Positions 9,154 to 19,760 of a stretch of DNA of 41,398 nt are shown here, piece after piece. The notes beneath the pieces were generated by a model. The model was not told the origin of the DNA, made no database searches, and saw only the letters and a list, made by a program, of their open reading frames with translations. How positions within the stretch are numbered: the first letter of the stretch is position 1; each line of letters begins with the position of its first letter. The position numbers and the translations under genes are program-made. The DNA is from Iphinoe sp. HA4291-MV1 (GTDB lineage: Bacteria; Cyanobacteriota; Cyanobacteriia; Cyanobacteriales; Nostocaceae): the NCBI GenBank assembly GCA_019359415.1, contig JAHHHH010000069.1, positions 1 through 41,398 on the forward strand, written 5' to 3'.

Positions 9154-10095
9154 CTACGATGTAGCAAATTCTAAATTTTTTCTTTGTTGCTGCTTTTCAA
9201 GCTCAGCATACTCTAGCTTTTGCAATAACTCTTGAGTTAATTGATAGAATGCTTTTGACCCTGCTGTGTTGGAATTGTTTAAAACAACAGGCATAAAACT
9301 GTCAACTGCCTTAGCGACATTCACATCCACTGGTATTTGTGTTTGACAAATTTTTGCATCACCAAAATCTTGATGAACACGCTGCATGACTTGTTTGTAA
9401 TATCTTCCACTGAGAAAGCTCGTGTTAGACATTGTGAAGACAATTCCCAGCATTTGTATATCTATATTTGCTTCATGTTCATGACTTTCCTTTAGCTGAG
9501 CAATGCGTCTTTCTAGCAATTGAATACCTACCACAGATAGCGGTTCTGGTTTAGCAGGAAGTATGTAGAATTGACTAGCCGCCAAAGCACTACGAGTTAA
9601 AAGATTATATCCAGGAGCGCAGTCTAAGATGATAAAATCATATTCTTGCCGAATGGGTTCTAAAATTTTCCCTAACAAGACTCTTTCAAAACGATTCCAA
9701 ATCGTTTCAAATTCATTCTCACCTAAATTGACTGCTTGTTGATGCAGCATTTCTGAGACAACAAATTCATCGTACAAGTCGATATCTCCTGGTAATAAAT
9801 CCAGTCCGGGGAGATTGCAAACCTGAGACTGAATGATATCCCGAATTGTCAATTTTGCCCTTGACGAGGGGCTGATAATGTCATCTATCAGATACCTCAA
9901 TGTCTGTCTTTGTTTGCGAAGTTTGGCAAAGTCCACAGGAGACATAAGACTGAGTGTGGCACTAATTTGGCTATCTAAGTCAAGAACAAGCACCCGCTTG
10001 CTATGATTTTTGACTAAACAAGTCGCCATATTGACGGTGAGAGTGGTTTTCCCAACTCCGCCCTTCATATTTGCAGTAGCAATGACATATCCCAT
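9154..10095 (-). CDS. ParA-family ATPase
   Basis: A deviant-Walker ATPase of the ParA/MinD type, 313 residues. Residues 1-20 hold the signature KGGVGKTTLTVN with the extra lysine typical of ParA, followed by VLVLDLDSQISATLSL (switch I-like) and FIILDCAPGYNLLTRSAL (Walker B/switch II). Such proteins form ATP-dependent dimers that bind DNA non-specifically and position plasmids, chromosomes or protein complexes. There is no ParB beside it on the same strand; the nearest ParB-like gene is at 12089 beyond the divergent ParA fusion. The start is ATG directly before the first beta strand. It may be an orphan or part of the neighbouring island; its cargo is unknown. Confidence 0.88.
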   Translation of the reverse strand: MGYVIATANMKGGVGKTTLTVNMATCLVKNHSKRVLVLDLDSQISATLSLMSPVDFAKLRKQRQTLRYLIDDIISPSSRAKLTIRDIIQSQVCNLPGLDLLPGDIDLYDEFVVSEMLHQQAVNLGENEFETIWNRFERVLLGKILEPIRQEYDFIILDCAPGYNLLTRSALAASQFYILPAKPEPLSVVGIQLLERRIAQLKESHEHEANIDIQMLGIVFTMSNTSFLSGRYYKQVMQRVHQDFGDAKICQTQIPVDVNVAKAVDSFMPVVLNNSNTAGSKAFYQLTQELLQKLEYAELEKQQQRKNLEFATS

Positions 10096-10530: not shown

Positions 10531-12084
10531 TTGGAATATACTGAGGTCATAATTGATAAAGTGTATAGCTCAATGCTCACGGTGGTAAGTATGACTGTTG
10601 ACTCCGGTTCGAGCCTACAAGACATATTCAAAGCAATCACTCTAAATAGTAGTGAATCCGATGTAGAAAAAAAAATTGTTATTCCCCTCCTGCTTACCTT
10701 AGGTTACAACAATGCAGATTGGCAATCTCAAGTAGTCATTCTAAAATCCAAGCTTGACTTTCTGGTGGGTCAATCTGACTCAGCTTTAATCACAACGCCC
10801 TATTTAATTATTGAGGTTAAGGCACCAAATAAAAATATTGCTCATAGTGTTTGGCAAATTAACAACTATATGCGCCGCACTGGCGCTGTTCTTGGTCTGT
10901 TAAGCAATGGCTATGATTTTCGTGTACTTTATAACTACGAAGAAAAAATTACACAGATAGTAGAGTATTCTCAAGTAACATTGGTAAATTACTATAAAAC
11001 ATTTCACAAAATTCTATCTAAAAAAACTTATCTGCACTATACCGCGACTCTATATAAAAACCAACAGCAAATTCGTTTACATTTCTTAAAGCTAATTTCT
11101 CAAACAGTACAACAAGAGAATATGTTGGGTTTATTTAACAAAACTAAGACTTCTTCCACCCAAAGACAGCAACCTAGCGAAGAAGAAATTTTATTCTCAG
11201 AAGCTCAAGAGGAACTGAAATCCATGATAATTACTGTATTTAATAACAAAGGTGGGGTAGGTAAAACCACAACGACTATTAACCTTGCTGCTGCTCTCAA
11301 CAAACTGGGGAAGCGGGTATTACTAATTGATATTGATGCTCAGGCTAATTTGACAACAGGATTAGGAATAGATCCATTAGAAGATATTGAACAGAAAAGC
11401 AAGAAAGATATTAGCCATTTATTAACTGAACCGAGAACTAGTGTAGAAGATACTATTATTCGTAAACAGTGGGATGATATTGAACTAGATATCATTCCAT
11501 CTCACATTCGTTTAAGTGATATGGAAGCAACACTCATTATGACACCGGATATTGATAGGGTGTTAGCAAAGAAGCTTAAAAAATATCGCAATCAATACGA
11601 TTATGTATTAATTGATCCACCGCCATCATTTGGTAAGGCTAATACTATTTCACTCATGGCGTCTTCTGCAGTTTTGATTCCTACGCATTTATCTCCTTAT
11701 CCTATCAGAGCATTAGAGTATGTTATCAACAGAACTATTGCTGTAGATCAATCTAGAGATGAGTCTTTACATATTTTAGGTATTGCAGTCAGTATGTATG
11801 ATAGGTCTGCTAGTAGACTTACTGCTAATATGACTCAAAAAATTTTTGAAATTCTTGCTAAAAGTCCAGAAAGTAAAGATGTTGATTTATTTCCACAAAA
11901 TACATGGATTCCACGTCTAAATATTGTTTCTAATGTTGCTGATAAAGACAAGGGTTATCCACTCTGTTATGCTGAGTTTGATGAGAATTTAAGCACCAGA
12001 GATAAAGAGGCTGCACAGGATGCCTTTGGCTGCTATATAGAACTAGCTAAGCACTTAGCTTCTATTGCAAAGACACAGGATTAG
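10531..12084 (+). CDS. HsdR-N-like nuclease domain fused to ParA ATPase
   Basis: Two domains are joined. Residues about 25-190 resemble the N-terminal PD-(D/E)XK domain of type I restriction subunit HsdR: SDVEKKIVIPLLLTLGY, then D76 (KLDFLVG) and E95-V-K97 (LIIEVKAPN), then WQINNYMRRTGAVLGLLSNG. Residues about 232-517 are a ParA ATPase with NNKGGVGKTTTT (239-249), VLLIDIDAQANLTTGLG, and VLIDPPPSFGKAN. The first possible start is TTG at 10531; in-frame ATGs at 10573 and 10591 are equally plausible. A further in-frame ATG at 11224 has an AGAGGA ribosome-type site and would give ParA alone. It is followed after 4 bases by the ParB-like gene, so the two are cotranscribed. Whether the nuclease site cuts DNA is unknown. 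Confidence 0.85.
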   Translation: MEYTEVIIDKVYSSMLTVVSMTVDSGSSLQDIFKAITLNSSESDVEKKIVIPLLLTLGYNNADWQSQVVILKSKLDFLVGQSDSALITTPYLIIEVKAPNKNIAHSVWQINNYMRRTGAVLGLLSNGYDFRVLYNYEEKITQIVEYSQVTLVNYYKTFHKILSKKTYLHYTATLYKNQQQIRLHFLKLISQTVQQENMLGLFNKTKTSSTQRQQPSEEEILFSEAQEELKSMIITVFNNKGGVGKTTTTINLAAALNKLGKRVLLIDIDAQANLTTGLGIDPLEDIEQKSKKDISHLLTEPRTSVEDTIIRKQWDDIELDIIPSHIRLSDMEATLIMTPDIDRVLAKKLKKYRNQYDYVLIDPPPSFGKANTISLMASSAVLIPTHLSPYPIRALEYVINRTIAVDQSRDESLHILGIAVSMYDRSASRLTANMTQKIFEILAKSPESKDVDLFPQNTWIPRLNIVSNVADKDKGYPLCYAEFDENLSTRDKEAAQDAFGCYIELAKHLASIAKTQD

Positions 12085-12088
12085 GAAA

Positions 12089-12850
12089 ATGAATTCCGTA
12101 GAAAGTCAAAATCGTATTATTGAATATTTACGCATCAAACCAATCAGTCATGGTCAAGTTTACACTTTCCAGATTGCCGTACCAGAGTCTGAAGTTGTAG
12201 CAATTCCTTCTGAAAGACGAGAACAATTAAAGGAGAGCTTTACTCAGCAAGGTACTAACTTAATTCCTCTCATTGTGCGCCGTACAGAAGCATACAGCGA
12301 GGAAGAAGAGTACGAAGTCGTCTATGGTGTTGATTGGTGTCTTGTTGCTAAGGAACTTGACATTGAGAAGCTATGGGTTTGGGTTTTTGACATGACTGAT
12401 GAACAAGTAGTTACTGCTAAAGAAGAAATGCAGCAGTTGCTTGGTTCTTCAGATTCCACCCCGGTAGAAATACAACACGCTTCTGAAAAAATAGAATCAA
12501 TAAAACCTATACTTCAACATCTTGATAAATTATTTCAGCAATTAGCAACGCTAAACCAAAAGATTGAGCAAGTTACTGCATCTGTCAAAAAACTTGAGCG
12601 TGAGACAAATGAAGTCAAGCAGACAAATAATGATGACAAATTTGTTCAGCAAATTGCTGAATCTATCAAAAGAATTGAAGAAAAGCTGAACAAACCACCA
12701 GAACCAACACCTTCACCATTACAAGATTATGACAGGATGACACTTTCACAACTTCAAATGATTGCTTCAGAACGAAGTATAAAGGGACGTTCAAAGATGA
12801 AAAGAACTGACCTTATTGCGGCGCTAAAAAAAGCTGACGCAAGCAACTAG
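12089..12850 (+). CDS. ParB-like protein with coiled coil and SAP/Rho-N-like tail
   Basis: Of 253 residues, about 10-105 resemble the ParB/Srx N-terminal domain: ESEVVAIPSERREQLKESF, TNLIPLIVRR, then YEVVYGVDWCLVAKELDIEKLWVWVFD. The usual GxRR arginine patch is replaced by GVDW, so CTP binding as in canonical ParB is doubtful. Residues about 135-205 are a heptad-rich coiled coil, and the end (MTLSQLQMIASERSIKGRSKMKRTDLI) looks like a SAP/Rho-N helix-extension-helix DNA- or RNA-binding motif. The ATG at 12089 has AGGA 4-5 bases upstream and follows the ParA fusion stop by 4 bases, so translation is probably coupled. It is the likely partner of that ParA. No helix-turn-helix of classical ParB is seen. 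Confidence 0.7.
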   Translation: MNSVESQNRIIEYLRIKPISHGQVYTFQIAVPESEVVAIPSERREQLKESFTQQGTNLIPLIVRRTEAYSEEEEYEVVYGVDWCLVAKELDIEKLWVWVFDMTDEQVVTAKEEMQQLLGSSDSTPVEIQHASEKIESIKPILQHLDKLFQQLATLNQKIEQVTASVKKLERETNEVKQTNNDDKFVQQIAESIKRIEEKLNKPPEPTPSPLQDYDRMTLSQLQMIASERSIKGRSKMKRTDLIAALKKADASN

Positions 12851-12915: not shown

Positions 12916-15492
12916 CTACCCCAGTCGAAGATCTGTCGCTAATAAACTCTGTAACCGATCCAATTGAGCGCCAATTTGATAGAGTAAATCGCCTTTCCCT
13001 AATAAGCGAGCAGCGGCTGTTTGTTTACCTCCCAAGATAATTGCTGAGTCTGCTTCGCTAGCGGTTCTAAGTGCAACTCGTCCTAGTAAATTTGAGCGAA
13101 TAATTGGGGTGACGATACCAGCTTCCGGGCGTTGAGTGGCGATAATCAAATGAATTCCAGCGGCTCTTGCCATTGCACCTAATCGTTTTATACTTTGTTC
13201 TAGAGCTGTGCGAGACTCTTTTTCTGCCATGAAGTCTGCGTATTCATCAAAGATACAGACAATTCTGGGCAAAGGCTGAGGAGAACGTTGATTATAAGTA
13301 CTTAAGTCAGCACATTTCGCTTTTTCAAATTGTTGATAGCGGGATTCCATTTCTGTTACTAGTTTCTCCATCAGTTCAATAGCGCGATCGCTCTCTTTAA
13401 CAACGGGTGAATACAACCACTGCATCTGCTCAAATTCAGGAAATGTCACTCGTTTGGGATCAACCAGAGCGATTTGTAAATGTGCTGGGGGATGACGAAA
13501 GATTAAACTAAGAAGGAGCGATCGCAAAAACTCACTCTTCCCACTCCCAGTTGTCCCCCCAACCAAAAAGTGACACGTATTTGGATCAGACAAATCAGCT
13601 TCTATCAGCTGTCCCTCTAAGTTCACCCCGATCGCAATTTTTATAGGTGCTGTTGCTGGTAAAGTTTGAGATTTTATGTAATCCTCAAACTTAGCAACTT
13701 GTCTATCCAGACGAGGTAAATCAATACTGACATATCCAGCTTGAGGGGAAATCAGAGGTGGATTGGCTAATCCTAACTGAACCTGTAAATCTGCTGATAA
13801 CTTTAGTATGGAGTTCACCTTAACACCAAGCAAGGGTTTGAGTTTCACTCGGATAAAAGCTGGACCAACAGCCGCCCCGTGGTAATCTACACCAATACCA
13901 AAAGATTGTAGAGTGTTCACCAAATCTTGACCCATCTCATCAGAATTAAATGCTTGTTCATCCTGACTCACTGTTTCTTGTTGATTCTCTTGGTGGGACA
14001 ATTCCTCAACTTGAGATTCTTGGACAAAGTAACTTTGACACTTTTGCTGTTGTGGACAAATTTTGCACAAGTGAGTTTGGGTTGTTAAGGGTGGAGGATT
14101 AGGTAATGGTGGTTCCCACTTCAACCATTGACGCATTTGCTGTAATTTATAAGGAATCAACTGATGAACCGTATTTTCGAGTTGTTCCCAGGTGTACTGA
14201 TACTCTTTGAATTCTGGCAAAACACAGTAAACGGCTGAGTCAACAGCGACTTGTTTCTTTTGCCATAGCATATAACTATAAAGCGCAACTTGAGCTAATT
14301 GTGCTGATGGATCGGCTGGTTGATAGGTTTTAAATTCCACCACGCAAAGGCGCTTTTTCTCAAAGTTGTAAACTAAGCAATCAAATTCCCCTGCTACCCG
14401 TTGCTGGCTATCATCCGGGAGATTAAAGTAGTACTCAAGCTTGCGCTCTTCATTGATAAAAGTGTGACGACTCACAGTTTCTGCACTGCAATAGCGGCGA
14501 TTGATGATGAGTAATTCAGCAAAGCGTTTGATGAGTCCTTGTAATCCCTGCCAAACTTTGAATAATGCTTGCGCTTGACTCGAATTTTTTTGAATAGCTT
14601 CTTGTAGGTAAGAATAGAACTTGATTTCATAAAAAATCTGTTGCAGACTAGAAGCTGTTTCCTCTATCTGTAATTGAGATGCGGTTGGTTTCAACAAATC
14701 TGTACATTGAGGCTCATGAGAAACAAAATGCACAAACTCATTAGCCAATTGATGAAATGTATGACCAATTCCAACAGCATTCTCTGGTGGTAAGAATAAT
14801 GTATTTCCTCCAAAGTGCTGATTGAGATAGAATAAGCGGGGACATTCAAAAGCGACTCGCACTTTTGTAACGGTTAAAGATAATTGTTCAGATTGTTTGG
14901 TTGATTTTTTTGAACCATTAGCGACCATATCAAAAATATTATTTATAGTATTGGGGTGAGAAATTTCCCATAAGCGACGATGGACAGCAGCCAGATAGAC
15001 TGTATCCATTGCAGCATAGTGTAGTTGTTTCTGTGTGAGAGGTCGTTTTCCCCAGTCACTTCCCTGTTCTTCTTTATCTACATCAGAGAATTGACAAAGT
15101 TCTGCTGCTAAGGTTTTTAGTTGTAGATTCGAGACTTGCAAAACTTGGCGGGTGATTTTTCTGGCTAGCTTCAGCGTACAGGTAACATTCTGTCCTAGCT
15201 TACCTCCGAGATATCTTAAATCAAAGCTGGCGTTGTGAAAGACTTTTTCGATTTGGGGATTCGCGATAACTTGATTAATGAAATCTACAGCTAAATCAGG
15301 TTTGTTCAAGACATCAAGAATAAAAACAGAGTCAATTCTTAAGTTTGTGGGTTCAGCGAGTACCTGAATAAGCGATAGTTTCGGATAGTAAGTATCCCAA
15401 TCAGCGATTTCTGTATCTAGCCACAGTGTTTGAGCCGAGGCGAATTTGAGGATTTGCGATCGGATTTCAGTCGCTTGTGTCAGGTATTGCAT
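12916..15492 (-). CDS. DEDDy exonuclease / Cas4-like nuclease / FtsK-HerA translocase fusion
   Basis: The 858-residue protein has three modules. (1) Residues 1-178: RNase D-like 3'-5' exonuclease with D26-T-E28, D91 (HNASFD) and Y159-x-x-x-D163 (YAAMD), a complete DEDDy set. (2) About 205-490: RecB/Cas4/AddB-type PD-(D/E)XK nuclease, with D371 (GEFD), E386-x-K388 (VVEFK), Q in AQLAQVALY, and four cysteines placed for an Fe-S cluster (C217 in CPRLFYL; C476, C479, C485). (3) About 525-858: FtsK/HerA motor with Walker A GGTTGSGKS (645-653), Walker B IFDEYADF (D749-E750) and the ATQRPE sensor. It is last in a leftward operon, 20 bases after the ATPase gene. A role in DNA-end processing or invader-DNA degradation is inferred. 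No membrane segments are seen, unlike chromosomal FtsK. Confidence 0.9.
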   Translation of the reverse strand: MQYLTQATEIRSQILKFASAQTLWLDTEIADWDTYYPKLSLIQVLAEPTNLRIDSVFILDVLNKPDLAVDFINQVIANPQIEKVFHNASFDLRYLGGKLGQNVTCTLKLARKITRQVLQVSNLQLKTLAAELCQFSDVDKEEQGSDWGKRPLTQKQLHYAAMDTVYLAAVHRRLWEISHPNTINNIFDMVANGSKKSTKQSEQLSLTVTKVRVAFECPRLFYLNQHFGGNTLFLPPENAVGIGHTFHQLANEFVHFVSHEPQCTDLLKPTASQLQIEETASSLQQIFYEIKFYSYLQEAIQKNSSQAQALFKVWQGLQGLIKRFAELLIINRRYCSAETVSRHTFINEERKLEYYFNLPDDSQQRVAGEFDCLVYNFEKKRLCVVEFKTYQPADPSAQLAQVALYSYMLWQKKQVAVDSAVYCVLPEFKEYQYTWEQLENTVHQLIPYKLQQMRQWLKWEPPLPNPPPLTTQTHLCKICPQQQKCQSYFVQESQVEELSHQENQQETVSQDEQAFNSDEMGQDLVNTLQSFGIGVDYHGAAVGPAFIRVKLKPLLGVKVNSILKLSADLQVQLGLANPPLISPQAGYVSIDLPRLDRQVAKFEDYIKSQTLPATAPIKIAIGVNLEGQLIEADLSDPNTCHFLVGGTTGSGKSEFLRSLLLSLIFRHPPAHLQIALVDPKRVTFPEFEQMQWLYSPVVKESDRAIELMEKLVTEMESRYQQFEKAKCADLSTYNQRSPQPLPRIVCIFDEYADFMAEKESRTALEQSIKRLGAMARAAGIHLIIATQRPEAGIVTPIIRSNLLGRVALRTASEADSAIILGGKQTAAARLLGKGDLLYQIGAQLDRLQSLLATDLRLG

Positions 15493-15512: not shown

Positions 15513-16410
15513 TTATATTTGAACTATGAAACAAATTAATTGGTCTTGTAACTTAGCTTTTGGATTAATAATTTTCACCTTCTTTTCTTGACACAAGAGT
15601 TCAATCAAGAGTAGAACTTCACTTTCTTTCACCAAAGGGAACTGACTAGTAGACTGTGTTATTAAAGTTGTGACTCCCATGTAACCTTGGGTTTTGACTA
15701 GATTCAACAAGAAATCTTTGACTTGTCTTGAATCTTTTTTTCCATTTGTATCGTCTCTACCGGTCTCTCGTTTAGAAACGATTCCTAAATCCTGTAACAA
15801 AGTACATTTTTCTAAAATTTTTGACTCACGAATTAAAGACTGTAGTTCCTGTAAAGTAATAGTCTTACCTGTAATAACTAATTCCTGAGCAAGTGCAGAA
15901 TTCACTAAGTTATGGTATGTCGCTAAATAGTGAACATAGGAGAGATTTGGTTTGATATAACGATGATTAGTACCTGTGAATATCTGGCTATAGATTTGAT
16001 TTCCTGCAAGCTTCGGGTTTCCTACACTTCCAATCCGAATCAAGTACATGGTTTGACAGAGATTTTGCTGAATTGCTCTATGACAAGCATTCATTATATT
16101 AAAAAAACTTGTCATGCTTGAATCCTCTGTCCAGACTATCCCCACTCGTTCATTATTACCACCAGGTTGTTGATAACTCAAAGAATAACTAGCGTACTTT
16201 CCACTTATGAGTTTGGTCTTAATTCCCTGTACTTCTAAGGCGGCTAGAGCTTCTTGCAACATCCCAATAAGTTCGGGTGCGGCTAACAGAGTAATTTTGG
16301 TGATTTTTTCCTGAACTTTTTTATATTCCTTTTGCCATAGCAATTTAAATTCTGCTTCACTTTTCTCACTTTCATTCGGCTGATTTATAATTATCGGAGT
16401 TTCAGGAGTA
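15513..16410 (-). pseudogene. 3' half of the MITE-split island ATPase gene
   Basis: This frame continues the ATPase gene that starts at 17757. Downstream of the MITE it reads TPETPIIINQPNESEKSEAE, then KLLWQKEYKKVQEKITKITLLAAPELIG and on to residue QI at 15513. There is no good start codon: a TTG at 16343 is the only possible one after the MITE. Removing the MITE plus one TA joins both halves in frame into 714 codons (2142 bases). The section has no recognised domain. It is hydrophilic and mixed alpha/beta, with a SYVHYLATYHNLVNSALAQE segment and a helical end that could be a winged-helix. It may still be translated from TTG or an internal start as a separate subunit, 20 bases before the nuclease-translocase gene. 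Confidence 0.75.
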
Positions 16411-16511
16411 TAGCAATCCTATTTGATTTATGAAAATCGCGCATGTTCAGATTCCTGACTTCGTAGAAGAAGTCGGGAATCTTGTTGTTCACGAATGATT
16501 TAGGATTGCTA
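16411..16511. mobile_element. Complete 101-bp MITE (TA target duplication)
   Basis: The ends are inverted (TAGCAATCCTA at left, TAGGATTGCTA at right, 11 bases perfect and weaker similarity further in), flanked by TA on both sides (16409-16410, 16512-16513). That is the pattern of IS630/Tc1-mariner-type elements. The middle forms a hairpin, GATTCCTGACTTC-(6)-GAAGTCGGGAATC. It carries no coding capacity. It lies inside the island ATPase gene and supplies that gene's premature stop codon. Confidence 0.85.
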
Positions 16512-17757
16512 TATGAGGTTTTTGAGTGACATGGGCAATAATTTTTTTACTATCGCCTGTCTGGTGTGATGTAAGAATTATCGGAGGTTTAGTAGTATCA
16601 CTGGTTTTAGTGTTTAATATTGAAAATTTATACTTTTGATACTCCTGTTTTCCCAATATTAGGGTATTTCTCGGCATAGTTTTGCCACCAGGAAAACTCT
16701 CTTCTAAAAACTGCCTCTTCAAAGGGAAAATAGGAGAATTGGGCTGAGGGTTTGCTTTCTGGTGTACTGCCTTTAACCTATAAGCCCAGAGAGCTTCTGC
16801 CTGGTCTAGTGTAATAAGTTTTAACTGAATTGAACGTTCAATCCTAGCTTTGTCAGCACTCTGAATACGAGCAATATTTCTCTTCCAGGTATTAGTAACT
16901 AAACTTATAATTACAAAGAAATTTTTGAGATAGTTATTATGAATAGTTGTATTAACATTAAATAAAACTTGAAAATCCTGAGAGCCATCTGGTAAGCAAG
17001 GAATGTTGTCTAAATTATCAAAACATAAAACAATAGGCTGAGTGTCAGTAGCAATCCTGCCAAAGTTAGCTAAGATATTTTTAGCTGCATCTTCTGAATC
17101 AATACAGTGTTTGACTTTCAACTCTTGCATAGATTCTTCACTTAAGTCATCCCCTTTTAACCACTCGCAAGCTAAGGGGTATAGTTCTGGATTTGTCAGG
17201 TCATGCAGCACACCAAAAAACATGTCAGCATTGTAAATGCTAGCTTGCTTGTAGGTTTGCTTGAGATGCTTGATGAATTTTTGGCGATCGCTTTGTAATA
17301 ATAGCCAGATACTATCATTAAAAAATCTCTGCTGAAGATTGCGTTTGGTAAAGGCAGATAAGCTTTTTAGCCATAACATCAACTGAGATTCTTGCTCGCC
17401 TTCTGGCACTTGAATTAAACTATCAACTGTATAGCGTAGGACATGACGCCAAATGTAGTCGCTATCAGCCCAAGGACCAATGTAGGCAAAAAAAGCTTTG
17501 GGATTAAAGGTTCGTTTGAGCCGACCTAATAAATAACTTTTGCCAGAACCGGAGTCACCTAAAAGCAACACACTACGACTACGATTGTCTGTGAAAACTA
17601 AGTCTAATAGCTCTTCAAGTTCAGCTATTGTTTCTTGATGAATTGACTCAACCATTAACATTGAGTCTTGCTGTTCTCCCCAAAAGTTACCGGGTTTCAA
17701 ATTTGTCAGGTCAAAAGGGTTTACCTCGCGTTTAATGATGTCGTTTATGGATAGCAT
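16489..17757 (-). CDS. P-loop ATPase, N-terminal part truncated by a MITE
   Basis: The 422-residue frame carries a P-loop: Walker A GDSGSGKS (residues 67-74, in VLLLGDSGSGKSYLLGRL) and a Walker B-like IVLCFDNLDNIP about 170 residues later, as in AAA/STAND/KAP-type ATPases that act on DNA or as signalling switches. The start motif is DIIKREVNPFDL, then FWGEQQD and VESIHQETIAELEELLDL. The last seven residues (IAILNHS) and the stop codon come from the inserted MITE, so the native protein was about 713 residues. The start ATG at 17757 lies 56 bases after the winged-helix-like gene, so the three genes form one operon. The N-terminal ATPase domain seems complete and could still work. It is likely the ATPase partner of the nuclease-translocase. 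Confidence 0.8.
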   Translation of the reverse strand: MLSINDIIKREVNPFDLTNLKPGNFWGEQQDSMLMVESIHQETIAELEELLDLVFTDNRSRSVLLLGDSGSGKSYLLGRLKRTFNPKAFFAYIGPWADSDYIWRHVLRYTVDSLIQVPEGEQESQLMLWLKSLSAFTKRNLQQRFFNDSIWLLLQSDRQKFIKHLKQTYKQASIYNADMFFGVLHDLTNPELYPLACEWLKGDDLSEESMQELKVKHCIDSEDAAKNILANFGRIATDTQPIVLCFDNLDNIPCLPDGSQDFQVLFNVNTTIHNNYLKNFFVIISLVTNTWKRNIARIQSADKARIERSIQLKLITLDQAEALWAYRLKAVHQKANPQPNSPIFPLKRQFLEESFPGGKTMPRNTLILGKQEYQKYKFSILNTKTSDTTKPPIILTSHQTGDSKKIIAHVTQKPHIAILNHS

Positions 17758-17813: not shown

Positions 17814-18665
17814 CTAGTTGACGCTGATAAAGAACAGTGGACCACCAATATTCTGGATAATTCCAGCATCAATTTGTTCTGGAGTATAGGCGTTAGCTTC
17901 TTGCAAAGTACTGAATTCAATTTGTTCGTTTGCTTGCAAACGATACAGAGCCTTATCAACTTCATCCCTTGACATTGGAGGTTGTAACTTTTCTCGCAGA
18001 TGAAAAATTGGCAAATAATTGTCAGTCCCCAGTTCCCTATCCAACTTCTGGATAGTTTCTAAAATCTCTTCGTCACTAATATTGATAATCGCTTCTAAAG
18101 AAGGCTCTTCATTCTTATGTAATGAAGGAGAGACTTGCTCAGGCTTACCATGCAGAGACTTCCGCATAAAGCGCAGATAATTATTCAGCAAATCCAAATT
18201 AATAGTCGCAGCGCCTTTGGGACTATAATCTTCCCGTAAATATTCCAGTCCTCGTTCAGTCAGCCATACCTCAGCTTTAGTTCTTTTGATTTTCGGTTGA
18301 GCTTCAATCAATCCCCGTTCACTCAGAGTTTTCAGTATCGTCTCTTTCTCAAGCGCTTTCAGGGATGACATTTTAATTTTGCTAGGGGAGATTTTACCAG
18401 CAGCTTTACTGATCTTCTCCAGCACCTTGAGTTCTTTGTCTGTAATAGGTAACTGATCTGGTTTAAGTTTCAGTAGAGCATTACCGGCTGGTAAAATCTT
18501 CACAGAAGCCATCTCGCGGGAATAGTCTACCAGTTCGCGATCGCCTAAATTTTGACAAATTTTATCTTTACCTTTAAAAGAATCGAAAATATTAGCACTA
18601 AGGCTTGACCGATAATTGGTACATCCTAGTAACTTTAGTAAGAACTTTAACTCATTTGTATCCAT
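17814..18665 (-). CDS. Winged-helix-like protein, first gene of the island operon
   Basis: A soluble 283-residue protein without a certain family. Residues about 75-150 look like a winged helix: ITDKELKVLEKISKAAGKI, then KETILKTLSERGLIEAQPK and VWLTERGLEYLRED, the order helix-helix-recognition helix-wing being common to MarR/ArsR-type domains. A second possible winged helix is at about 220-265 (YLPIFHLREKLQPPMSRDEVDKALYRLQANEQIEF). The N-terminal 60 residues (ELKFLLKLLG ... QNLGDRELVDYSREMASVKIL) resemble a third small helical DNA-binding unit. It heads the leftward operon with the ATPase and the nuclease-translocase. It may be the operon regulator or the DNA-recognition subunit. Start ATG at 18665. 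Confidence 0.65.
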   Translation of the reverse strand: MDTNELKFLLKLLGCTNYRSSLSANIFDSFKGKDKICQNLGDRELVDYSREMASVKILPAGNALLKLKPDQLPITDKELKVLEKISKAAGKISPSKIKMSSLKALEKETILKTLSERGLIEAQPKIKRTKAEVWLTERGLEYLREDYSPKGAATINLDLLNNYLRFMRKSLHGKPEQVSPSLHKNEEPSLEAIINISDEEILETIQKLDRELGTDNYLPIFHLREKLQPPMSRDEVDKALYRLQANEQIEFSTLQEANAYTPEQIDAGIIQNIGGPLFFISVN

Positions 18666-19105
18666 GCGGATTCTTACCTGTATTTATATCAGCACCACTC
18701 TAGCTCAAAAAGCAATAATTTACACCCCTTCTTATCCTAACTAGGTTTAGGGGTTCAGCCAGGGTAAGTGTTATTAAAACATCAACACAGATGTGTTGAG
18801 TTGTATCCTGGAGACACGCTACTGTGTTGGATACATTTAAAGCAAGAGTTTGTAAATACAATGTAAGATAATGTAATATTACTGTCTTCGTGCTTTTATG
18901 TCTTTGCGTGACGTATTACCCCATACCTGTTCAAAATATCCGGAAAGCAAGTTCCAGTCATAGAATAGCTATCTCAGCATTATGAGAAAAGATATCAATC
19001 GGGGGCTGAGATGGATAATTTAGAATCGAAAATTATTGATATTTTAAAGTGTGGTATTCCTCTAAGAACCAAGACAGGTGTGTATTATTAAATAATGGAA
19101 CAGAA
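18666..19105. promoter_or_regulatory. Intergenic region upstream of the island operon and the TA pair
   Basis: No gene is seen in these 440 bases. Divergent promoters are expected. About 18785-18835 carries nested inverted sequences around GTGTTGA and TCCTGGAGACACGCTACTGTGTTGGATAC, possibly an operator or small element. A cyanobacterial repeat-like phrase (CTTTGCGTGACG) lies near 18902. Confidence 0.4.
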
Positions 19106-19432
19106 ATGGAAGATTCATCAATGCAGTTAGTCAGTCGGGAGCATATCGAAATCGTTTCTGATGTGCGGAGTGGGAAGCCCCGCATTGTTGGTACCCGCAT
19201 TGCTGTAGAGGATGTGGCGGTGATGCATTTAAAACTAGGGTATTCCTTGGTAGAAATTGCTGGTAAGTATGACTTGTCACTGGCGTCTGTTTATGCAGCA
19301 ATGGCTTATTACTTTGATCACCGAGACGAGATTGATCGCCGCATAGCAGAAGAGGATGAGTTAGTTGAGGTACTGAAGCAAAATTATCCCTCGCGTCTCC
19401 AAGAGAAACTCAGACAGTTGAGGAATGAGTGA
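19106..19432 (+). CDS. DUF433 antitoxin-like protein
   Basis: Matches the DUF433 family (helix-turn-helix antitoxins of VapB type): ISREH-like start SREHIEIVSDVRSGKPRIVGTRI, then EDVAVMHLKLGYSLVEIAGKYDLSLASVYAAMAYYFDHRDEID. The frame is open from a GTG at 19049, but the family begins near the ATG at 19121. The ATG at 19106, preceded by GGAAC, is chosen here, giving 108 residues. It overlaps the next gene by 8 bases, the usual arrangement with a DUF5615 toxin. The antitoxin should bind the toxin and autoregulate the promoter just upstream. Confidence 0.88.
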   Translation: MEDSSMQLVSREHIEIVSDVRSGKPRIVGTRIAVEDVAVMHLKLGYSLVEIAGKYDLSLASVYAAMAYYFDHRDEIDRRIAEEDELVEVLKQNYPSRLQEKLRQLRNE

Positions 19433-19760
19433 ACGAATTTGCTTTCATTTGGATGAAAATGTCGATTCTGCAATTGCTCTTGGCTTGCGCCGTTATGGAA
19501 TTGATGTCACAACAACCAATGAGGTGGAATTGCGTACTCAAAGCGATGAAGTCCAGTTAGCATTTATTCAGGAAACACAGCGAGTACTGTTCACCCAAGA
19601 TGCAGATTTTTTGATTATTGCAAGTTCTAGGCTTGATCATCCTGGTATTACCTACTGCAAGAAAGGAACTCGTTCAATTGGTGAAATCATTGAAACCTTG
19701 GTTTTGATTTATGAGGTGATGACACCTGAAGAGATGGTGGGACGTGTCGAGTTTTGTTGA
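19425..19760 (+). CDS. DUF5615 PIN-like toxin
   Basis: A 111-residue protein of the DUF5615 family, a PIN-like ribonuclease fold paired with DUF433. Visible acidic residues are in FHLDENVDSAIALGLRRYGIDV (D9, E10), a central E in QLAFIQETQRVLFTQDADF (D in TQDADF) and the C-terminal GEIIETLVLIYEVMTPEEM. These match the metal-binding positions of PIN domains, so RNA cleavage is expected when the antitoxin is lost. The ATG lies inside the antitoxin gene (8-base overlap), implying translational coupling. Length is normal and no damage is seen. Confidence 0.88.
   Translation: MSERICFHLDENVDSAIALGLRRYGIDVTTTNEVELRTQSDEVQLAFIQETQRVLFTQDADFLIIASSRLDHPGITYCKKGTRSIGEIIETLVLIYEVMTPEEMVGRVEFC

Follow-up and report, generated by a model that had tools for sequence, protein, structure and literature searches.

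Orc/CDC6 AAA+ ATPases coupled to HerA or FtsK motors have been predicted in silico as 'HerA/FtsK capture' systems (Rakesh, Aravind and Krishnan 2024; PMC10853773). As laid out in the main text of that paper, the Orc/CDC6 protein localises and the HerA/FtsK motor intercepts segregating or transferring DNA; an inactive restriction endonuclease lies between the AAA+ and winged-helix domains of the ATPase, the active nuclease belongs to one of two families, one of them named by AbiJ, one set of motors has FtsK-alpha, and some members fuse a 3'-5' exonuclease to the motor or add a gene with two to four winged helices that is related to DndG. The locus described here lies in a 41,398-nucleotide stretch of Iphinoe sp. 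HA4291-MV1 (contig JAHHHH010000069.1), which was analyzed whole and is referred to as the window. A gene at 12916..15492 on its minus strand encodes an 858-amino acid protein, the nuclease-motor, which is probably a subunit of a three-gene, restriction-like DNA-conflict system of this Orc/CDC6-coupled class. As judged from profiles and structural models, the chain of DEDDy, PD-(D/E)XK and FtsK domains has two partners in the system: a protein with tandem winged helices and an Orc-type AAA+ ATPase whose C-terminus is a winged helix.

With the class as described in PMC10853773 the locus has in common an Orc/CDC6 ATPase in which a further domain precedes the C-terminal winged helix, a nuclease in which the catalytic residues appear to be present, an FtsK motor with FtsK-alpha, an apparent multi-winged-helix gene, and a 3'-5' exonuclease fused to the motor. 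Beyond that description stand a four-cysteine nuclease of AddB/Cas4 type, a site exchange and the apparent swapping of the AAA+ domain; the main text of the paper contains neither 'cyanobacteri' nor 'RecB', nor 'ParA' as a word. The general design, exonuclease-motor fusion included, is already in print as that 2024 prediction, and an earlier note on this DNA, made from the sequence alone, was wrong to state that no such system had been described.

Architecture of the nuclease-motor protein

Pfam profiles place four domains in the nuclease-motor, in the order 3'-5' exonuclease of DEDDy type (residues 2-176, 14965..15489), PDDEXK_1 (residues 206-486, 14035..14877; 5.2e-13, with the model matched along its whole length), FtsK-alpha (residues 505-593, 13714..13980; 6e-11) and FtsK_SpoIIIE (residues 613-789, 13126..13656), all on the minus strand. 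The earlier note had proposed this union of a DEDDy exonuclease, an AddB/Cas4-type nuclease and an FtsK motor and had named the active-site residues. Both proposals were borne out by the profiles and by aligning the window protein to 80 relatives; nearly all of the 81 proteins conserve the residues at the claimed positions. These are D26, E28, D91, Y159 and D163 of the exonuclease (the first three with one or two gaps), D371, E386 and K388 of the PD-(D/E)XK domain (with five E-to-D changes at E386) together with its four invariant cysteines at 217, 476, 479 and 485, and Walker A (645-653) and Walker B (749-750) of the motor. By its cysteine pattern the middle nuclease is of AddB/Cas4 type.

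The profile search of the middle region, which the earlier note had named as a possible refutation, matches PDDEXK_1, and this assignment has profile support in 23 of 24 homologues. Structure prediction backed the proposal in part. The AlphaFold model (predicted local distance difference test, pLDDT, 74.8; predicted template modelling score, pTM, 0.41; residues 792-858 below 50) backs the exonuclease and motor folds, while a fold search with the whole model barely covered residues 186-592 and the middle domain alone gave no credible match among PDB profiles; for the putative PD-(D/E)XK domain the support is from profiles only. An assembly or sequencing artefact, or a chance fusion, was ruled out. 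Close-relative patterns recovered 145 relatives in genome_contigs, of which the best 80 were kept as loci, and all 80, each with a cyanobacterial record title, align with the window protein over all three parts, L076 from residue 56 onwards.

HerA-NurA and AddAB/RecBCD likewise pair a motor with a nuclease, and the AddB/Cas4-type cysteine pattern is familiar from such systems. In contrast to these, the motor here is FtsK-type, is fused to two nucleases and has an Orc-type partner; the separate-subunit layout of HerA-NurA was not found, motor and nuclease being one chain, and FtsK was the best-matching family, with HerA profiles weaker. The DEDDy fold and residues are also those of RNase D. They are shared with NrnC/diDNase as described in PMC11706625, although the domain here is fused. 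The stand-alone proteins closest to it are cyanobacterial, of about 305-430 amino acids, and not NrnC. Descent of the domain from the host's stand-alone paralogue was considered and not adopted: the stand-alone proteins group in a single clade (99/95) next to the fused proteins, in a tree that gives no direction. At L118:6394-7947 (genome G119), away from the operon genes, a protein of 517 amino acids looks by eye to combine a DEDDy domain with a hydrophobic N-terminus and an additional C-terminal region. In a rough tree the FtsK motor lies nearest to cyanobacterial plasmid-type FtsK (one of the three 'plasmid-type' rows, L110, sits on a 6.8-Mb contig) and does not group with SspH; because of long branches and unsettled bootstrap this tree is a hint only.

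The operon and its kinship with described systems

A survey of homologues for conserved neighbours, which the earlier note had suggested, revealed a three-gene operon in which the order in relatives is winged-helix gene, ATPase and, third, nuclease-motor. In the window the first gene (17814..18665, minus strand) encodes the tandem winged-helix protein of 283 amino acids, with winged-helix matches to PDB profiles at two places (SlyA, 2.3e-5; a Z-alpha-like domain, 0.013), and it is present in 72 of the 80 loci. The Orc-type ATPase is in two pieces, an N-terminal AAA+ piece (16489..17757, minus strand; AAA_16, 1e-8) and a C-terminal piece with the inserted domain and winged helix (15513..16343, minus strand), which match in 76 and 77 of the 80 loci; for the winged-helix gene and the ATPase alike, several of the misses are contig ends. 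Relatives carry the ATPase as a single open reading frame (ORF) in 73 of 76 loci, mostly of 660-739 amino acids. L063 and L066 were not counted as such, the C-terminal query having matched another ATPase ORF better, and the L036 gene, too, is broken, close to the linker at which the window gene is divided.

The window ATPase is in two ORFs because they are separated by a 100-bp element resembling a miniature inverted-repeat transposable element (16412..16511, minus strand), which has 13-bp terminal inverted repeats and takes in the last codons of the N-terminal piece. Three relatives (L078, L038 and L011) are contiguous at this position. The element forms a hairpin (z -5.7) and has 51 matches in its own genome, itself included, some of which are both strands of one copy. 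Ratios of nonsynonymous to synonymous substitution (dN/dS) against relatives were 0.08-0.20 for the AAA+ piece and 0.16-0.32 for the C-terminal piece. Both pieces therefore still look conserved, which fits a recent break, the comparison covering the relatives rather than isolating the window's own lineage. With its ATPase gene interrupted, the window copy of the operon may be impaired or decaying.

For relative L007, in which the ATPase is intact, a good model of it was obtained (pLDDT 87.1, pTM 0.84). Among solved structures VIA-align ranked ORC/Cdc6 proteins best, followed closely by TnsC and BrxC; in Foldseek two TnsC chains alone passed E 0.001, and Cdc6 stood at 0.0011. The model comprises an alpha-beta domain of mixed helices and strands at residues 438-566, followed by a winged helix at 621-687. 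Several ORC alignments extend to the last residue with a high root-mean-square deviation, and we read the C-terminal winged helix as matching that of ORC across the inserted domain. On this model the ATPase is assigned to the Orc/CDC6 family. By eye, no conserved E-x-K was seen in the consensus of the insert at 438-566, in agreement with the inactive endonuclease that PMC10853773 places there, although a fold match for this part was not obtained. Two tandem Orc-type ATPases follow the winged-helix gene at L115 and L119, without a nuclease-motor, and at L120, beside a complete operon. Two small overlapping genes at 19049-19760 of the window have the appearance of a toxin-antitoxin-type pair of DUF433/DUF5615 kind.

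SspFGH/DndFGH, as described in PMC8092258, is likewise a three-gene system, in which a nuclease-FtsK chain goes with a P-loop ATPase and a further protein, and SspH was the best PADLOC model for the motor (3.6e-69; 31% identity over 325 columns). Cyanobacterial SspH, however, has 1770-1815 amino acids and another N-terminus than the 858-amino acid protein. In profile comparisons SspF (2 sequences) met the ATPase at a probability of 7.5 and at the P-loop only, and SspG (3 sequences) met the winged-helix gene at a probability of 0.1; PADLOC SspF matched the AAA+ piece at 0.0024 over 45 residues. Membership of SspFGH was ruled out by the mismatch of SspF and SspG. SspD (E<=1e-100) was found in 7 of 38 genomes with the system and in 3 of the 4 SspH-bearing control genomes searched; in the window's own genome the best SspD match, SspD being the only sspBCD gene searched for, was 5e-9 and fell on its DndC.

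It is quite improbable that the operon serves phosphorothioate (Dnd) modification in cyanobacteria as its restriction arm, working in trans like DndFGH in other settings. The motor resembles SspH, dnd genes are reported in PMC8569181 to be enriched in Nostocales with the dndFGH cluster absent, and DndC (E<=1e-60) is carried by 36 of the 38 genomes with the system as against 58 of 348 others across the phylum. Within the order, where 93 of 105 sampled genomes carry DndC, this association vanishes (36/38 versus 57/67 without the system, Fisher p 0.20), and since DndC is common without the system as well there is no specific tie to Dnd. Moreover, system genomes G051 and G159 have no DndC, the gene is not adjacent to the operon (in G153, for instance, it lies about 88 kb away), and no relationship to SspF or SspG was detected. 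A phosphorothioate partnership was accordingly set aside. In the source genome itself DndC is matched strongly (2e-197) at G000:C133:2018-3433, on a different contig.

Distribution, AAA+ divergence and a second module at the same site

PDDEXK and FtsK were found together in 38 of 386 cyanobacterial genomes (the gene of G305 being interrupted), or 38 of 105 within the host's order. The ATPase was found in 47 of the 386, including all 38 with the nuclease-motor, and judging by these counts the two are co-retained. The remaining contexts of the ATPase are varied: alone in G072, G231 and G306, where it is a remnant; with the winged-helix gene in G109, G119 and G118 (tandem copies in G118); with the winged-helix gene and a DEDDy piece in G199; with the winged-helix gene and a PDDEXK-only gene in G320; and as a remnant in G385. 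In G051, G101 and G233 the pair of winged-helix and ATPase genes lies far from the nuclease-motor, both parts being kept.

The DEDDy domain is missing from the nuclease-motors of L094 (a conjugative plasmid of Pseudanabaena PCC 7367) and G159, reduced to a 61-amino acid remnant in G121 and truncated in G101 and G278, which makes it an accessory part. At L095:10508-13873 (G131) the chain holds DEDDy, a serine/threonine-kinase-like insert (by eye), a degraded PDDEXK and FtsK, and is accompanied by a separate PDDEXK gene at L095:5925-6788. The PDDEXK-only gene of G320 (L096:6309-7214), beside the ATPase, has by eye lost D, E and K and kept the four cysteines; in this one case the cysteines appear to have outlived catalysis. 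The plasmid operon at L094:2298-6435 adjoins genes for a DEAD/DEAH helicase and a SWIM zinc-finger protein.

Across 72 relatives, the identities to the window of the winged-helix, DEDDy, PDDEXK and FtsK parts were correlated with one another at 0.73-0.83. The AAA+ part was correlated with these at only 0.16-0.23, and the C-terminal ATPase part took a middle position (0.60-0.68). For the 60 relatives with the most similar nuclease-motor, AAA+ identities group around 50 and around 70 percent, and three stand at 92. Between L007 and the window the synonymous divergence (dS) was 1.89 for the AAA+ part and 0.30-0.49 for the nuclease-motor domains. From these comparisons the AAA+ domain looks to have been swapped independently of the operon, as a recognition module, and such swapping may be target-driven.

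The window carries a second module, the rival module B, which has the nuclease-motor gene on one side and, on the other, a ParA-like gene (9154..10095, minus strand) that neighbours ileS. Its gene 1 (10531..12084, plus strand) fuses a PD-(D/E)XK domain of HsdR_N type to ParA (HSDR_N_2, 2.4e-7; AAA_31, 1.1e-47), and the D, E and K of the nuclease are present in the window row. Gene 2 (12065..12850, plus strand) is ParB_N-like with a C-terminal Rho_N (Rho_N, 5.3e-9; ParB_N, 0.0047); two counterparts beside gene 1 elsewhere match ParB_N at 9e-6 and 6.4e-10. The ParA-like gene marks a chromosomal site: it is found near module B, a counterpart with at least 61% identity lies close to the nuclease-motor in 43 of the 80 loci, and ileS is in the flank of 22.

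Among 118 genomes of the host's family, scored by the nuclease domain of gene 1 only and by the nuclease-motor gene only, 59 have an intact nuclease-motor and 61 the rival domain: 9 both, 52 rival only, 50 nuclease-motor only and 7 neither (Fisher 4e-16, a value inflated by kinship among genomes). Genomes of both kinds occur within 15 genera, and in a within-genus permutation, the 7 genomes with neither being dropped, 9 genomes with both were observed against 18.6 expected, with none of 20,000 permutations as low. Scored as intact were the window genome, in spite of its split ATPase gene, the DEDDy-truncated G101 and G278, and G443 (38% contaminated); G305 and G404 were scored as broken. Counting only untruncated rivals, four genomes have both (G000, G400, G430 and G440), and a truncated rival accompanies an intact nuclease-motor in G300, G408 (on another contig), G431 and G453. 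Rival regions were fetched for 47 of the 61 genomes, and in 41 of these one or more of four flanking genes are present (34 of 40 without the 7 regions fetched earlier for operon remnants). FtsK 3' ends lie beside the rival in G024, G042, G421, G427 and G448, and DEDDy pieces remain in G199, G251 and G467. Against a simple exchange, the nuclease-motor is broken in G305, G385 and G424 where no rival is present, so that it can also be lost in the absence of one. The nuclease-motor gene and module B thus alternate, mostly at one site, which may be new; replacement from a shared site could alone produce the exclusion, and the genomic data do not imply functional equivalence or antagonism.

More tentatively, the family site is possibly a two-allele conflict locus, held either by the Orc/FtsK two-nuclease operon or by the PD-(D/E)XK-ParA and ParB-like pair, which would be an undescribed partition-coupled anti-element nuclease. 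The two would have replaced each other repeatedly, the AAA+ domain would be a swappable recognition module, and the window would have been caught in transition, with both modules and a broken old ATPase gene.

It is unlikely that the operon is instead a domesticated maintenance or segregation module of transposon or plasmid origin (TnsC/Orc with FtsK), acting on chromosome or plasmid segregation and not on invaders. Exchange with a ParA/ParB-type module, the plasmid-type affinity of FtsK in the rough tree, TnsC among the best ATPase matches and the copy on a conjugative plasmid would all agree with such a role, but two conserved nuclease active sites suit destruction better, and an intact nuclease-motor is lacking from about half of the family (59 of 118 genomes).

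Function and significance of the operon

The earlier note had taken the protein for a machine of processive DNA-end degradation or resection. We give little credence to a housekeeping apparatus of this kind, like HerA-NurA or AddAB, in which the motor would follow a broken end and the two nucleases would process the strands. It would accord with the pairing of a motor and an AddB/Cas4-type nuclease, with the recurrent synteny of ParA marker and ileS, and with purifying selection. An accessory conflict system is nevertheless favoured because presence is patchy, copies are often decayed, the AAA+ part of the ATPase appears to be swapped and a rival module exists; the Orc-type partner also speaks against resection. 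The first interpretation, which had considered one gene of the three, held for modules and residues; its functional reading is the less probable one, and its reading of novelty was wrong.

On the genomic evidence, restriction of invading DNA is the favoured function of the operon. The winged-helix protein and the Orc-type ring would recognise and mark invading DNA, be it a plasmid, conjugative element or phage, and load an FtsK hexamer, which would pump duplex DNA past the cysteine-clamped PD-(D/E)XK nuclease to be cut. The DEDDy domain would then trim 3' ends or short products and be dispensable in some lineages.

Several observations weigh against restriction by a system of this class. No relative was found in viral_contigs, where distant kin could escape detection, and in genome_contigs, in a scan that reaches close relatives only, every locus kept is cyanobacterial, which would be narrow for a defence system. 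Among plasmids, the full ATPase and winged-helix gene were met in one record, also cyanobacterial. The marker ParA beside so many copies indicates a stable site. PADLOC names the motor only (SspH, mad8), giving nothing for the winged-helix protein and weak P-loop matches for the ATPase (best PtuA, 1.5e-4), and for an inactive nuclease in the ATPase insert no fold match was obtained.

In the open-access literature searched we found no experimental study of the Orc/CDC6-type HerA/FtsK capture class and no report of site exchange between a nuclease-motor operon and a ParA/ParB-type nuclease module. The operon offers an experimentally accessible cyanobacterial example, with its partners identified, of a defence class otherwise found only as predictions, and the DEDDy-less variants and degenerate copies could be used as natural controls. 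The exchange of modules poses the question of whether two unrelated machines do the same job in this family or mutually exclude each other.
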